A stretch of 64,000 nucleotides of DNA, taken from assembly GCA_934572535.1 (NCBI GenBank), contig CAKTLJ010000004.1:1-64000 (forward strand). The letters run 5' to 3'. This document shows, in pieces, positions 55,807 through 61,577 of this stretch. Under the pieces are notes generated by a model. It was not told the DNA's origin. It saw only the letters and a list, made by a program, of their open reading frames with translations, and searched no databases. A program made the translations under genes and the position numbers. Source of the DNA: an uncultured Eubacteriales bacterium (GTDB taxonomy: Bacteria; Bacillota; Clostridia; Oscillospirales; Oscillospiraceae). Positions within the stretch are counted from its first letter, which is position 1. Each line of letters opens with the position of its first letter.

Positions 55807-55835
55807 TTGACAGTCCCGCCCTCTCCGCCTACAAT
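55807..55835 (+). promoter_or_regulatory. consensus promoter in front of the hairpin element
   Basis: TTGACA (55807-55812), 17-nt spacer, TACAAT (55830-55835), 9 bases after the RluA-family stop. Transcription would run into the hairpin at 55846 within a few bases, so any product is about 40 nt unless it reads through. Confidence 0.5.
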
Positions 55836-55924: not shown

Positions 55925-55953
55925 TTGACAGAATCCGTTCTTTCTGCTAAAAT
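55925..55953 (+). promoter_or_regulatory. sigma-A promoter of the pot operon leader
   Basis: TTGACA (55925-55930), 17-nt spacer, TAAAAT (55948-55953). The start near 55960 lies about 390 bases before potA. Confidence 0.85.
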
Positions 55954-55959
55954 ACGTTC

Positions 55960-56351
55960 TATCTTCTATTTGGAAACCACGAGATCGAGTCTTTCCAAAG
56001 CAAGACGCGACCGCCGGACGGGTCCCTTTGCCCCCGCAAAGCCCCCAAGGCCAAGGCCACACGGACAGCCGGGTCGAATGCCGAGTTCCGCATGATGCGG
56101 CGGCAACTTCTGTTGCCTTATTGATTGGGTTAAAAGCCCAAGTTTTATAAGTTGGTAACTATAAACCATTGCTTTCGAGCATACAAACTTGTGAAATGAT
56201 CAATAAGAGTAGTAAAAGTAAGTTTCTTTGCTATATAGACTCTCAAAATCTTCGGTTTCCGCAGTGGAAGTGAATCCATTGCGGTATGCGCAAGTGACTG
56301 TATGCGATAAGCATGACGGTCACTTTTTTTGTTTTTTGGAGGCACGCTCCC
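55960..56351 (+). ncRNA. long structured leader RNA of the pot operon, class not identified
   Basis: From the start site: TTTGGAAA/TTTCCAAA stem (55969-55999); CTTTGC/GCAAAG hairpin (about 56026-56041); a GC-rich part with CAAAGCC and CAGCCGGGTCGAATGCCG; hairpins CCGCATGATGCGG (56088-56100) and GGCAACTTCTGTTGCC (56102-56117); an AT-rich domain closed by TTATTGAT/ATCAATAA (about 56117-56214) holding three small hairpins; a CCGCAGTGGA/TCCATTGCGG hairpin (56259-56284); then a terminator (56293-56337) immediately before the potA ribosome binding site. This layout is that of a riboswitch or attenuator. The GC-rich part loosely resembles the 3' half of GEMM (c-di-GMP-I) but the 5' half does not fit. 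Confidence 0.6.
56293..56337 (+). terminator. attenuator-like terminator just upstream of potA
   Basis: AGTGAC...GTCACT with inner TATGC/GCAT pairing, followed by seven T, G and six T, ending 1 base before the GGAGG ribosome binding site of potA. Confidence 0.85.
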
Positions 56352-57476
56352 ATGAAAAAAATCATTGAGCTGAAACACATCACCAAATCCTTCGACGGCG
56401 AGCAGCCCGTCCTGCAAAACGTGGATCTGGACATCTACGACAACGAATTCCTCACCCTGCTGGGGCCATCCGGCTGCGGCAAGACCACCCTCCTGCGGCT
56501 CATCGGCGGCTTCGAGTCCCCCGACGAGGGCGACGTGATCTTCCTGGGCCAGCGCATCAACGGCGTTCCGCCCTACAAGCGCCACGTGAACACCGTCTTT
56601 CAGAAGTACGCCCTCTTCCCCCACCTGAACGTCTTTGAAAACGTCGCCTTCCCCCTGCGCGAGAAGAAGCTCCCCAAGGAGGAGATCGAGGCGCGGGTCC
56701 ACGAGATGCTCGCCCTGGTGGCCCTGAAGGGCTTTGAGAAGCGCAGCGTCACCCGCCTCTCCGGCGGGCAGCAGCAGCGGGTGGCCATCGCCCGCGCCCT
56801 GGTGGCCCAGCCCCGGGTCCTGCTGCTGGACGAGCCCCTGGGCGCGCTGGACCTGAAGCTGCGCAAGGACATGCAGGTGGAGCTGAAAAAGATCCAGAAG
56901 CAGACCGGCATCACCTTCATCTTCGTCACCCACGACCAGGAGGAGGCCCTGTCCATGTCCGACACCGTGGTGGTCATGTCCGAGGGCAAGATCCACCAGA
57001 TCGGCACCCCCGTGGACATCTACAACGAGCCTGTCAACGCCTTCGTGGCCGACTTCATCGGCGAGAGCAACATCCTGGACGGCGTCATGCTGGAGGACTA
57101 CAAGGTGCGCTTCTCCGGCCAGACCTTCCGCTGTCTGGACAAGGAGTTCGAGCGCAACGAGCCTGTGGACGTGGTGGTCCGCCCGGAGGACGTGGACATC
57201 GTCCCCGTGGAGCGGGGCCAGCTCACCGGCGTGGTCACCTCGGTCACCTTCATGGGCGTCCACTATGAGATCATCGTGGACGTGGGCGGCTTCAAGTGGA
57301 TGATCCAGACCACCGACTTCGTGGACGTGGACGAGAAGATCGGCATCGAGCTGGAGCCGGACGCCATCCACATCATGAAAAAGTCCGAATACTCCGACCT
57401 CTACGGCGACTACTCCTCCTTCTCCAACGAGCTGGACGAGCTCTCCGAGGCAGAAATGGAGGATGAGGACGCATGA
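56352..57476 (+). CDS. potA: spermidine/putrescine ABC transporter ATP-binding protein PotA
   Basis: A 374-residue importer ATPase. Walker [10 protein letters not shown] (about residues 36-44), Q-loop FQKYALFPH, signature LSGGQQQR, Walker [14 protein letters not shown]-loop THDQEEA, then a C-terminal TOBE-like regulatory domain (about 255-345) and an acidic tail. ATG 56352 follows GGAGG by 9 bases; GGAG and CTCC around it can pair and mask the site. First gene of potA-potB-potCD, downstream of the structured leader. Confidence 0.93.
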
Positions 57477-58366
57477 CAAAAAAACTGGCCGGGAATGAAC
57501 GGCGAGTCGTCCGAATGGACCACCTGGCGCTGGGGCCCTACTCCCTCTGGGCTGTCATCTTTATCCTGGTGCCCCTGGTCTTCGTCGCCTACTACGCCTT
57601 CACCGACAACAACTTCCACTTCACCCTGGACAACATCCTGCGCTTTTTCACCTCCACCTCCCAGGTGCTGCAAGCCGACGGCTCCAGCAAGGAGATCTAC
57701 ACCTACCTGGTGATCTTCTGGCGCTCCCTGAAGCTGGCCGTCATCTCCACCTTCCTCTGCCTGCTGCTGGCCTATCCCCTGGCCTACAGCATGGCCCGGG
57801 CGCAGCCCCGCGTCCAGAAGACCTTTATGACCATCATCATGATCCCCATGTGGATGAACTTCCTCATCCGCACCTATGCCTGGATGACCATCCTCCAGGA
57901 CACGGGCATCCTCAACAACTTCCTCTCCGCCCTCGACCTGCCGGTGATCCACATCATCGGCACCGAGGCCGCCGTGGTCATCGGCATGGTCTATGACTAC
58001 TTCCCCTACATGGTCCTGCCCCTCTACTCCATCATGGCCAAGATGGACACGAAGCTCATCGAGGCCGCCCGTGACCTGGGGTGCAACGGCCTGGGGGTCC
58101 TCCGCCGGGTCATCTGGCCGCTGAGCCTGCCCGGCGTCATCAACGGCGTCACCATGGTGCTCATCCCCTCCATCAGCACCTTCTACATCTCCCAAAAGCT
58201 GGGCGACGGCAAGTTCTTCCTCATCGGCGACGCCATTGAGAGCCAGTACGTGGCCAACAACCTCCACTTCGCCGCCGCCATGGCCTTCATCCTCATGGTG
58301 GTCCTGCTGGTCTGCATGGGCGCGATGCAGGTCCTCACCAACCGACACACGGAAGGAGGGAAATGA
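57473..58366 (+). CDS. potB: spermidine/putrescine ABC transporter permease PotB
   Basis: A 297-residue inner-membrane permease with six predicted helices and the EAA loop [21 protein letters not shown] (shown in part: [17 protein letters not shown]) near residues 195-212 that docks on PotA. Its ATG overlaps the potA stop by 4 bases and its stop overlaps potCD. Substrate by family is spermidine or putrescine. Confidence 0.93.
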
Positions 58367-60336
58367 TCCCTATGAAACCCATCGCAAAAGTCTACACCGG
58401 CATCATCTTCCTCTTCCTCTTTGCCCCCATCATCATCCTGCTGGTGTTCTCCTTCAACAGCAGCAACAGCCTGTCGGTCTTCGACGGCTTCTCCCTGTAT
58501 TGGTACAAGGAGCTCTTCCACGACACCAACACCCTGGCCGCCCTGAAAAACACCCTCGTGCTGGCCCTGTGCGCCTCCATCCTCTCCACGGTCATGGGCA
58601 CGGCCGCCGCCGTGGGCATCAACAAGCTCCGCAACCGCCAGATGAAGATGGCCATGAACACCGTGACCAACATCCCCATGGTGAACCCCGACATCATCAC
58701 CGGTATCTCCCTGATGCTGATGTTCGTCTTCGTGGGCCGTCTCATGGGCCTGGGCACCAGCCTGAGCTTCTGGACCATGCTCATCGCCCACATCACCTTC
58801 TGCCTGCCCTACGTGATCCTACAGGTCCTGCCCAAGCTGCGGCAGATGGACAAGGCCCTGCCGGAGGCCGCCCAGGACCTGGGCTGCACCCCCATCCGGG
58901 CCTTCTTCAAGGTGGAGCTGCCGGAGATCATGCCCGGCATCCTCTCCGGCATGATCATGGCCTTCACCCTCTCCCTGGACGACTTCGTCATCAGCTACTT
59001 CACCTCGGGCAACGGCTTTACGACCCTGCCCGTCCGCATCTACAGCATGACCAAGAAGACGGTCACGCCCAAGATGTACGCCCTGTCCACCCTCATCTTC
59101 TTCGTGGTGCTGGCGCTGCTGCTCATCACCAACCTGATGGACGACGACGAGGCGGCCCGGGCCCGCCGGGCCGAAAAGAAGGCCAAGCACGGCCACAAGG
59201 CCCATCCCCTCGGCAACCGGGGGAAGGAGCTGGTCGCCGGCGGCGTCATCGCGGTCGCCCTGGTGGTGGTCCTGGGCGTGTCCGCCGCGGGCAAGGCCTC
59301 CGACACCCTGGAGCTGAACGTCTACAACTGGGGCGAGTACATCTCCGACGGCTCCGACGGCTCTCTGGACACCATCAAGGCCTTTGAGGCCTGGTACAAG
59401 GAGGAGTACGGCCAGAAGATCAAGGTCAACTACTCCACCTACGCCAGCAACGAGGACATGTACGCCAAGCTCAAGAGCGGCGCCGTCAGCTACGACGTCA
59501 TCTTCCCCTCGGACTACATGGCCGCCCGCCTCAAGGAGGAAGGGATGCTCCTGCCGCTGGACTTCAGCAACATCCCCAACTACCAGTACATCACCGAGGA
59601 CTACCGGGGCCTGTACTACGACCCCGACGACACCTACACCGTCCCCTACACCTACGGCATCGTGGGCGTCATCTACAACGCCAACGTGGTGGACGAGGCG
59701 GACGTCGGCGGCTGGGACCTGATGTGGAACCCGAAGTACGCCGGGTCCATCCTCCAGTTCAACAACTCCCGCGACGCCTTCGGCACGGCCATGTACAAGC
59801 TGGGCATCGACGTGAACACCACCGACACGGCCCAGTGGGACCGGGCGCTGGATGAGCTGCTGAAGCAGCGTCCCCTCGTCAAGGCCTACGTCATGGACGA
59901 GATCTTCAACGCCCTGGAGGCCGGTGAGGCCGCCATCGGCGCGTACTACGCCGGTGACTACTTCACCATGGTGGACGCCCAGGCCGCCAGCGTGGACCTG
60001 CAATTCTACTACCCCGAGGTCACCAACTACTTCTTCGACGCCATGTGCATCCCCTCCTGCTGCGAAAACAAGGAGCTGGCGGAGATCTTTATCAACTACA
60101 TGCTCAGCGAAGAGGTGGCCGTCGCCAACGCCGAGTACATCTACTACGCCTGCCCCAATTCCCTGGTCTACAACAACGAGACCTACCAGGAGGACATGGG
60201 CGAGGACGCCATGGCGATCCTCTATCCCTCCATGGAGGGCTTTGCCGAAAAGTACAACCGCTTCGCCTACCAGAACCTCTCCGACGAGATGCTCGACTAC
60301 ATGAACACCCTCTGGGAAGGGCTGAAGATCAACTGA
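58363..60336 (+). CDS. PotC-PotD fusion: permease joined to the substrate-binding protein
   Basis: A 657-residue fusion. Residues 1-265 are PotC: six helices and the EAA loop EAAQDLGCTPIRAFFKVEL. A basic linker (about 268-295) leads to one more helix (LVAGGVIAVALVVVLGVSA, about 298-316) and then a complete PotD-type polyamine-binding domain (LELNVYNWGEYIS at about 322 to the C-terminus). There is no lipobox, so the binding protein is tethered through the extra helix. ATG 58363 overlaps the potB stop; ATG 58372 is an alternative better spaced from GGAGG. Such fusions are known in some Firmicutes. Confidence 0.92.
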   Translation: MIPMKPIAKVYTGIIFLFLFAPIIILLVFSFNSSNSLSVFDGFSLYWYKELFHDTNTLAALKNTLVLALCASILSTVMGTAAAVGINKLRNRQMKMAMNTVTNIPMVNPDIITGISLMLMFVFVGRLMGLGTSLSFWTMLIAHITFCLPYVILQVLPKLRQMDKALPEAAQDLGCTPIRAFFKVELPEIMPGILSGMIMAFTLSLDDFVISYFTSGNGFTTLPVRIYSMTKKTVTPKMYALSTLIFFVVLALLLITNLMDDDEAARARRAEKKAKHGHKAHPLGNRGKELVAGGVIAVALVVVLGVSAAGKASDTLELNVYNWGEYISDGSDGSLDTIKAFEAWYKEEYGQKIKVNYSTYASNEDMYAKLKSGAVSYDVIFPSDYMAARLKEEGMLLPLDFSNIPNYQYITEDYRGLYYDPDDTYTVPYTYGIVGVIYNANVVDEADVGGWDLMWNPKYAGSILQFNNSRDAFGTAMYKLGIDVNTTDTAQWDRALDELLKQRPLVKAYVMDEIFNALEAGEAAIGAYYAGDYFTMVDAQAASVDLQFYYPEVTNYFFDAMCIPSCCENKELAEIFINYMLSEEVAVANAEYIYYACPNSLVYNNETYQEDMGEDAMAILYPSMEGFAEKYNRFAYQNLSDEMLDYMNTLWEGLKIN

Positions 60337-60398: not shown

Positions 60399-61577
60399 TT
60401 ATTCTGCGTAGTTGGTGAAGTAGTTCTGGATGACGATGAAGGGGGTGCCCTTGTCGCCGGAGCCGGAGGTCAGGTCACACAGGGAGCCAAGCAGGTCGGT
60501 GTACTGACGGGGGGTGGTGCCCTCGGAGCTCATGTTGCCCACCAGGTCGGAATCCTTGCCCTGGATCTCCTTGCGAATGGCGGCCTTCAGTTCCTCGCCG
60601 GACAGGTCGGAGAAGTCGTTGTCCGCCAGGAACTTGATCTTCAGCTCGTTGGGGCGGCCGGACAGGCCCTCGGTATAGGCAGGAGAGACCACGGGGTCAG
60701 CCAGCTCCCAGATACCGCCCACGGGGTCCTTGAACGCGCCGTCGCCGTAGACCATGACCTCCACGCGGATGCCGCGCTCGGCCTGGATGCGGGCCTGGAT
60801 GCCGTCCACCACGGGCTGGCAGTCGCGGGGGAAGAGCTTCAGCTTTTCCTCGGTGGCCTTGTTGGAGCCAAGCAGGCCGTACTTGTCGTGGTAACCGCTG
60901 CCGTCCACGGGGGCGGAGAGGATGTCGGCCAGGGTGAAGACCGTCTTGCCCATGGCCTTCAGCACGTCGCGGGTCTCGTTGCGGGTGTGGATGTCACAGC
61001 AGAGGATGTTGTCACATGCGGTGGCGATGTAGCGGGGATCGTTGGAGAAGAGGAAGGTGGCCTTTGCGCCCTCGGACTCAATGACCGCACGGTAAAAGTC
61101 CAGGTAGTTCACGCCGGTGAAGGGGTGCAGGGGCGTTCCGAAGGTCTTGACGAAGTCCGCCTCCTGATAGGAGGTGACCTCGCTGTACCTGTGGGGAACA
61201 TAGGCGGCGCGCGCCATGAGCGGGTTGCCCACCTCGTCGTTGGGGTAGCTGAAAAGGATCACGACTTCTTCCACCGCCCGGGCAATGCCCTTCAGGCACA
61301 TGGAGAAGCGGTTGCGGCTGAGGATGGGGAACACCAGGCCCACCTTCTTGGCCTCGCCGAACTTCGCGCGGATGTCCTGCGCCACGTGGTCAACGGTAAC
61401 ATAGTTGCCCTGGGCGCGTGCCACCACGGACTCGGTAACGGCAATGATGTCGCGGTCCTTCAGGGTGTAGTTGTCCTCCTTCTCGGATGCGTACACGCTG
61501 TTGACAACGATATCGACGATGTCGTCGCCTTCGCGGATGATGGGGCCTTGGATCCCTCTGGAAATAACGCCTGCCAT
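60399..61577 (-). CDS. coenzyme F420-0:L-glutamate ligase-like protein
   Basis: A 392-residue protein of the F420 ligase (CofE-like, PF01996-type) superfamily: N-terminal GIQGPIIREGDDI (residues 8-20) and DRDIIAVTESVVARAQG (about 42-58), with a long C-terminal half containing HTRNETRDVLKAM and GDGAFKDPVGGIWELADPVVSPAY. Many Clostridia that do not make F420 carry it, so its real substrate is unknown; no other F420 gene is in the window. ATG 61577 follows TGGAGGAC. Own promoter at 61681-61709. Confidence 0.78.
   Translation of the reverse strand: MAGVISRGIQGPIIREGDDIVDIVVNSVYASEKEDNYTLKDRDIIAVTESVVARAQGNYVTVDHVAQDIRAKFGEAKKVGLVFPILSRNRFSMCLKGIARAVEEVVILFSYPNDEVGNPLMARAAYVPHRYSEVTSYQEADFVKTFGTPLHPFTGVNYLDFYRAVIESEGAKATFLFSNDPRYIATACDNILCCDIHTRNETRDVLKAMGKTVFTLADILSAPVDGSGYHDKYGLLGSNKATEEKLKLFPRDCQPVVDGIQARIQAERGIRVEVMVYGDGAFKDPVGGIWELADPVVSPAYTEGLSGRPNELKIKFLADNDFSDLSGEELKAAIRKEIQGKDSDLVGNMSSEGTTPRQYTDLLGSLCDLTSGSGDKGTPFIVIQNYFTNYAE

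Follow-up and report, generated by a model that had tools for sequence, protein, structure and literature searches.

A full-length member of a Bacillota-wide RNA precedes a clostridial polyamine transporter operon and is most likely a polyamine-sensing attenuator

The window analysed here, a stretch of 64,000 nt from an uncultured Eubacteriales bacterium, carries a long structured leader in front of its polyamine transporter operon. This leader is most likely a full-length member of an RNA distributed across the Bacillota that acts as a polyamine-sensing (probably spermidine-sensing), transcription-attenuating OFF riboswitch. The core of the RNA is already known, as Rfam family RF02440. The full molecule, its structure, its gene context spanning uptake and biosynthesis, and the proposed switch appear to be undescribed in the open-licence literature; since our comparison covered open-licence papers, an earlier description is possible. 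The landmarks outside the conserved RNA are the following.

55925-55953, forward strand: sigma-70-type promoter, TTGACA-17-TAAAAT, matching 11 of 12 consensus positions
56259-56284, forward strand: hairpin CCGCAGTGGA/TCCATTGCGG; the predicted fold of 56253-56300 has -18 kcal/mol
56290-56337, forward strand: intrinsic terminator, left arm starting with GCAAGT, complementary to ACTTGT of helix P6
56352-57476, forward strand: potA, ATP-binding protein of a spermidine/putrescine ABC transporter (NCBIfam NF043075, 556.1 bits, cutoff 550)
57473-58366, forward strand: potB (best model PotB, 182.6 bits, under its cutoff of 348)
58363-60336, forward strand: fused potC-potD (PotC profile over residues 5-262, PotD profile over 298-624, both under cutoff)

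A previous interpretation made from the sequence alone (hereafter the sequence-only reading) had described a near-consensus promoter followed by about 390 non-coding bases. Both points were borne out, the list of reading frames holding no sense-strand ORF of at least 60 aa in 55954-56312 between promoter and potA. It had also counted at least seven stem-loops, and up to ten can be drawn, with uneven support: P0, P2a, P2b, P2c, P3, P5, P7, P8, the hairpin at 56259-56284 and the terminator. The predicted fold of the leader (55955-56351) reaches -132.8 kcal/mol with a z of -4.76, equalled by none of 100 shuffles; the terminator stem at 56292-56325 reaches -18.4 kcal/mol, equalled by 1 of 200. As had been read, the T-rich end of the terminator, interrupted by a single G, extends to the base preceding the potA ribosome binding site, GGAGG at 56338-56342. 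The potA start is ATG 56352, and an in-frame ATG at 56313, within the terminator, extends the listed potA ORF.

Some observations concern the surroundings of the operon. Another promoter-like site (55807-55835, TTGACA-17-TACAAT, 11 of 12 positions) lies 118 bases 5' of the leader promoter and directly 3' of a gene for an RluA-type pseudouridine synthase. The potC-potD fusion is a single reading frame of 657 aa with the permease first and the substrate-binding protein second. A gene convergent with the operon, on the reverse strand at 60399-61577, encodes a protein of 392 aa that weakly matches coenzyme F420-0:L-glutamate ligase, at 40.3 bits where the cutoff is 274.

The sequence-only reading had found no riboswitch class for the leader and had seen in its GC-rich part a partial GEMM-like 3' half. 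Neither statement could be maintained. The leader contains the following match.

56008-56084, forward strand: RF02440 (SpF59/ldcC RNA), 54.6 bits against a gathering cutoff of 37.2

At E up to 5, RF02440 was the sole family in the Rfam scan of the leader apart from U54, which matched the opposite strand by chance. With no other family matching above chance, the GEMM (c-di-GMP riboswitch), T-box and SAM-I readings drop out; for the SAM-I aptamer fold this refers to the family itself, SAM-I variants lying outside the Rfam comparison. When 16 relatives were scanned against all of Rfam, 15 reached the RF02440 cutoff (L101 stayed below), and the sole other match in their stretches was a tRNA.

RF02440 is a 54-nt model comprising P2, P2a and the core, entitled 'Streptococcus sRNA SpF59 (ldcC RNA)' and typed 'Gene; sRNA'. 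The label 'ldcC RNA' presumably derives from earlier lists of RNA motifs. Its core AAGGCCAUACGGACAGCCGGGUC, inside a GACC/GGUC helix, is present in the window at 56009-56075 with a single core base differing, C for U. A strong Rfam match had been expected to remove the novelty of the leader. The match is strong, but it does so formally only, since RF02440 models a fragment of 54 nt under the type sRNA, whereas the conserved RNA comprises about 240 nt plus, usually, a terminator. The family is named for Streptococcus; the conserved RNA precedes genes for polyamines in Clostridia, Bacilli, Negativicutes and some few other groups.

The extent of the RNA emerged from its relatives. A degenerate pattern of the core occurred at one place in the window and in at least 118 stretches of species genomes; in viral contigs there was none among the matches listed. 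What the relatives have in common outside the Rfam fragment is the greater part of the AT-rich domain together with the 3' block GAGTAGTAAAAGT...TTTGCTATATAGACTC (among the matches listed). Searched by itself with a strict pattern, this 3' block turned up in 38 of 295 genomes from one order, and the backward pattern used as a control in none; 37 of these 38 have an RF02440 match close by, and the remaining locus (L264), which precedes potA, has lost its 5' part at a contig end. This co-occurrence indicates that both halves travel as a single unit, which spans about 240 nt between P1 and P1'. Of the 69 genomes that have an RF02440 match, 32 lack the strict 3' pattern, and some members have a P5-P8 region that is shortened or has diverged: L225 is compact, lacks P5-P8 and retains CACTTG within its P4 loop, and L087 and L101, lactococcal and situated before potA, have diverged there. 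In L041 and L107, long insertions, hairpin-like by eye, occupy the P7-P8 apex.

RF02440 matches were found in 18 of 398 genomes from the phylum of a Flavonifractor genome, in 24 of 299 from the class of a Paenibacillus genome (three hit genomes being shared with the first sample), in 11 of 150 from the class of a Phascolarctobacterium genome, in 4 of 149 from the phylum of a Spirochaetes MAG and in 69 of 295 from the order to which the Flavonifractor genome belongs, with 66 over the cutoff. Among 14 control genomes, Lactococcus lactis alone had a match, and the genera with members include Lactococcus, Bacillus and Paenibacillus, which are experimentally tractable. A single match was seen in each of 19 genomes out of 19 and in every listed hit genome of the taxon-wide searches; prevalence and copy number are lower bounds, since in searches of more than 40 genomes filters were strict and few candidates were scored per genome. 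Five members (L095, L137 and L184-L186) come from a Synergistaceae MAG and the phylum of the Spirochaetes MAG, which suggests occurrence or transfer outside the Bacillota, or misbinning.

The helices of the RNA, in window coordinates, are listed below.

55969-55999, forward strand: P0, 5' hairpin TTTGGAAA/TTTCCAAA, the weakest helix
55999-56005, forward strand: P1 5' strand AGCAAGA, pairing with 56225-56232 with one bulge
56009-56012, forward strand: P2 5' strand GACC, pairing with 56072-56075; closing pair 56008/56076
56013-56051, forward strand: P2a hairpin, with a long loop in the window; swap test z -22.4
56053-56075, forward strand: conserved core AAGGCCACACGGACAGCCGGGTC, holding P2b (GGC 56055-56057 / GCC 56068-56070)
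56088-56100, forward strand: P2c, an optional hairpin, in part of 31 aligned sequences only
56102-56117, forward strand: P3 hairpin GGCAAC/GTTGCC; both partners change in 6 of 6 pairs, and 83.5% of cells are paired
56118-56206, forward strand: AT-rich domain closed by P4, TTATTGA (56118-56124) with TCAATAA (56200-56206)
56125-56141, forward strand: P5 hairpin TTGGG/CCCAA; both partners change in 4 of 5 pairs
56143-56196, forward strand: P6 helix TTTTATAAGTT/AACTTGTGAAA, enclosing P7 (56154-56167) and P8 (56169-56183)
56207-56242, forward strand: conserved 3' block, with the P1 3' strand (56225-56232) and an alternative GAGT/ACTC hairpin

For the structural tests, 92 of 119 RNAs (the at least 118 loci plus the window) were kept on the basis of enough flank, a 3' anchor and a core-to-anchor distance of 150-215 nt; single tests used 88, 89 or 90 of them, and the swap tests of P3, P5, P7 and P8 used 87, 75, 70 and 70. 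RNAalifold was run on an alignment of 82 RNAs, ten having been omitted by hand for uncertain anchors or insertions. Pairs were counted in 31 of these 82 that are less than 70% identical; P0, P1, P2b and P8 were uncounted, the P1 5' strand being misaligned there. Swap and shuffle tests leave the relatedness among the sequences in. In the counted alignment, 94.6% of cells pair, and both partners change in 15 of 43 pairs. Its covariation score was 0.177 against 0.100 when shuffled, a value reached by none of 500 shuffles, and structures slid along the alignment gave at most 0.070. Covariation across homologues, on which the sequence-only reading had made a sensing role depend, and which together with a conserved structure is looked for in riboswitches, is thus found for several helices, not for every one.

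P2a, P3, P5 and P8 passed the swap test, P8 with a z of -9.0 (n=70 loci). The position used for P2a was picked for best P2a pairing, a choice that favours its result; its first pair was A-U in 56 of 89 loci, G-C in 31, G-U in one and unpaired in one. The P2 closing pair was U-A in 37, G-C in 25, C-G in 20, U-G in 4 and unpaired in 3 (n=89 loci). P2 lies inside the Rfam model, so that matches found with RF02440 are biased towards its pairing. P2b, unpaired in that model, was GGC/GCC in most loci and took the compensatory forms GCC/GGC, AGC/GCU and GUC/GAC in divergent members (pairing cases alone were tabulated); it was absent at its usual place in L214 and L216. For P1, upstream AGCA.. pairs with UUUGCU, and the pairing was stronger within a locus than between loci (own-versus-swapped duplex z -10.1, n=88 loci, and -13.0, n=90). 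Within gene groups, its z was -3.9 for PotA, -3.1 for decarboxylase, -4.2 for SpeD and +1.2 for carboxynorspermidine synthase.

The AT-rich multi-hairpin domain closed by TTATTGA/TCAATAA had been recognized before and was recovered here. Its closing helix P4 is nearly invariant (both partners change in 0 of 7 pairs), and P6, although 94.9% paired, is conserved too, with 1 of 11 pairs changing on both sides, so that little covariation information comes from either. P7 gave no signal past conservation in its swap test (z -0.4, n=70 loci); of its three pairs, one has both partners changed, in 3 sequences. The signal of P0 (z -5.2, n=89 loci) fell within groups to +0.4 for PotA and +1.1 for carboxynorspermidine synthase, with -2.1 and -3.2 for the other two. 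Pairing of the transcript 5' end with the stretch 3' of P1 was moderate, with a z of -5.4 overall and -1.1 to -3.1 within groups. Of 89 loci, 84 have both GAGT and ACTC; a closing helix GAGTC-GACTC common to all members was rejected, the upstream GAGTC occurring in only 30 of 89.

The sequence-only reading had taken the leader for a ligand-sensing or tRNA-sensing one. Its long, multi-domain build with an attenuator stands, and the link to polyamines is probable, but the tRNA-sensing part fell away. A T-box leader or a leader-peptide attenuator would resemble this RNA in length and terminator and is nevertheless very improbable, because the Rfam scan contained no T-box and because an ATG before [AG]TCAATA was found in only 34 of 89 loci, with peptide lengths varying widely among the 40 reading frames listed. 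Attenuation by an upstream ORF at this single ATG site was rejected on that count.

A link to function comes from the genes behind the RNA. In a first sample (119 RNAs including the window, among the matches listed), the first gene was polyamine-related in all 111 loci with enough sequence; the other 8 had at most 245 nt downstream. These first genes were potA in 33, speD in 33, an Orn/Lys/Arg decarboxylase in 30 and carboxynorspermidine synthase in 15 loci, with hits starting 189-661 nt past the start of the core match, and potB followed potA in 27 of 27 PotA loci with 1800 nt downstream (all among the matches listed). In a second sample of 96 loci from whole-genome searches, which overlaps the first and has some contigs in common with it, 93 of the 94 loci with enough sequence were polyamine-related, L209 and L221 being left aside with 62 and 285 nt downstream. 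Here speD came first in 33, decarboxylase in 31, carboxynorspermidine synthase in 26 and potA in 3; in the one exception, L215, other ORFs come first, led by a probable membrane protein, and speD follows 2.2 kb on. Of the 69 genome hits in the order of 295 genomes, 50 places were read for genes. The tblastn references were polyamine proteins alone, so that 'first gene' denotes the nearest hit to a polyamine protein in the same direction. Among representatives, PotA, SpeD, SpeE, agmatinase and NspC reach NCBIfam cutoffs; the decarboxylase and the carboxynorspermidine synthase have best matches so named with scores under the cutoffs, and are therefore named by family resemblance.

The gene contexts thus cover uptake (PotA) and the biosynthetic routes through SpeD, decarboxylase/SpeE and carboxynorspermidine synthase/NspC, and we infer, with good support, that the RNA controls polyamine genes. 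The sequence-only reading had considered control of polyamine uptake. The RNA is not peculiar to potA, however, since it likewise stands at the front of operons for speD, decarboxylase and carboxynorspermidine synthase. PotABCD, SpeD, the decarboxylases and carboxynorspermidine synthase have the polyamine pool alone in common, with spermidine as the shared end product. This argues against a cis riboswitch for a compound other than the end product, such as agmatine, ornithine/arginine, decarboxylated SAM or Mg2+. Precursors would suit the decarboxylase and SpeD operons, and the ligand is named by deduction; SAM and decarboxylated SAM, however, are not used by potA and carboxynorspermidine synthase, as known from the pathways, and we regard such a ligand as improbable.

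How the RNA would act is suggested by its putative expression platform. A terminator was detected between the RNA and the gene behind it in 72 of 91 loci, where order-1 resampling gave 4.4 expected. The 19 loci without one include the window, whose terminator is bulged, the detector permitting no bulges. A candidate antiterminator strand lies in P6.

56187-56193, forward strand: ACTTGTG, the P6 3' strand and proposed antiterminator strand; best match for terminator left arms among the RNA positions covered

In the 67 loci that, along with the window, have both a terminator and the CTTGT motif, the terminator left arm was complementary to ACUUGUG of P6 in 51, as against 12 of 238 unrelated terminators from the same loci; it was missing in 16. 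ACUUGUG can pair either within P6 or with the terminator arm, never with both, an antiterminator-like arrangement. The relation is one of complementarity and not of covariation, as P6 hardly varies. A possible covariation is seen in L101, whose terminator arm reads CCAAGCG and whose changed strand CGCTTTGG is similar to the complement of that arm. The terminator arm is also complementary to the P1 3' strand, as a lower second peak, so that the antiterminator partner could be another strand. Since the predicted minimum-energy fold of the leader contains P6 and the terminator together, an antiterminator would need to win kinetically.

With one copy heading an operon and a terminator behind it, end-product feedback through attenuation would be the simplest mechanism. 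When polyamine is scarce, the P6 strand ACUUGUG would pair with the terminator left arm and potABCD would be transcribed; when it is plentiful, the folded RNA (P1, the P2 core and P6) would retain ACUUGUG, the terminator would form and uptake would be off. From the conservation of the leader before genes that make or import polyamines in many Bacillota, we infer that it probably senses polyamines such as spermidine, by binding them directly, and shuts these genes off. A cis attenuator read by an RNA-binding, polyamine-responsive protein, without direct binding of the ligand, would also be compatible with the gene associations and terminators. Direct sensing is moreover hard to assume for compounds that bind RNA non-selectively, a property of polyamines pointed out in PMC10853860. 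Yet the long, near-invariant core and the multi-helix architecture exceed what protein-binding attenuators usually need, from general knowledge, and we consider a protein-read attenuator rather unlikely.

The pneumococcal representative has been catalogued differently. F59, for which RF02440 was named, has 82 nt and lies between SP0915 and SP0916 (PMC3395615); SN20 (869478-869791, before SP0916; PMC2887815) and srn235/Spd_sr49 (PMC12323649) overlap it, and the 2010 survey proposed SN20 as a possible FMN switch (PMC2887815). These listings among small RNAs (PMC2887815, PMC3395615, PMC12323649) and the filing of RF02440 as 'Gene; sRNA' speak for a trans-acting small RNA. We hold this to be quite doubtful, since in the loci read the RNA stood directly upstream of polyamine genes and in their direction, and since the same short transcript is expected from a terminated leader; cis and trans roles are compatible. 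A terminated leader would explain the leader length of SN20, as judged by reported coordinates. In a pneumococcal potABCD deletion with reduced polyamines, SP_0916 was up 16.9-fold and speE 14.4-fold by qRT-PCR; in the RNA-seq data given in the same account, speA and speE were not differentially expressed (PMC8540371).

On balance, we favour a widespread class of large polyamine riboswitches, unrelated to the spermidine class derived from SAM-I, with one copy per genome heading an operon that supplies polyamines (import, SpeD/SpeE, decarboxylase or carboxyspermidine route); the 'sRNA' SpF59 would then be its terminated leader. Spermidine riboswitches were described in 2023 as rare variants of SAM-I, and the authors were certain that further polyamine classes await discovery (PMC10853860). 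Like the RNA described here, these riboswitches are associated with polyamine genes (speE, speB, ldcC), and transcriptional OFF control through a terminator is described for them and proposed here (PMC10853860). Our RNA differs in having no match to the SAM-I family by Rfam, a comparison made at the level of the family. Their distribution was called narrow (PMC10853860), whereas this RNA occurs in 69 of 295 genomes of one order. The ABC-leader of Haemophilus/Pasteurella is likewise a predicted attenuator before potABCD, but gammaproteobacterial, a comparison made by description alone (PMC2965389). The potE and odc1 motifs are, like this RNA, candidate elements near polyamine genes; by description alone, they are set apart as elements of Veillonella (plus environmental sequences) and of Alphaproteobacteria (PMC8632094). 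In the open-licence literature we found no reading of this RNA as a polyamine switch; 'ldcC RNA' and 'RF02440' did not occur in the papers returned, and 'SpF59' in one paper referred to strain names.

In conclusion, if confirmed, the proposed switch would explain how the supply of polyamines is regulated in many gut Bacillota. It would also assign a function to a pneumococcal RNA that has been counted among the small RNAs since 2010 (PMC2887815), and would correct an Rfam entry in which about a fifth of the molecule is represented.
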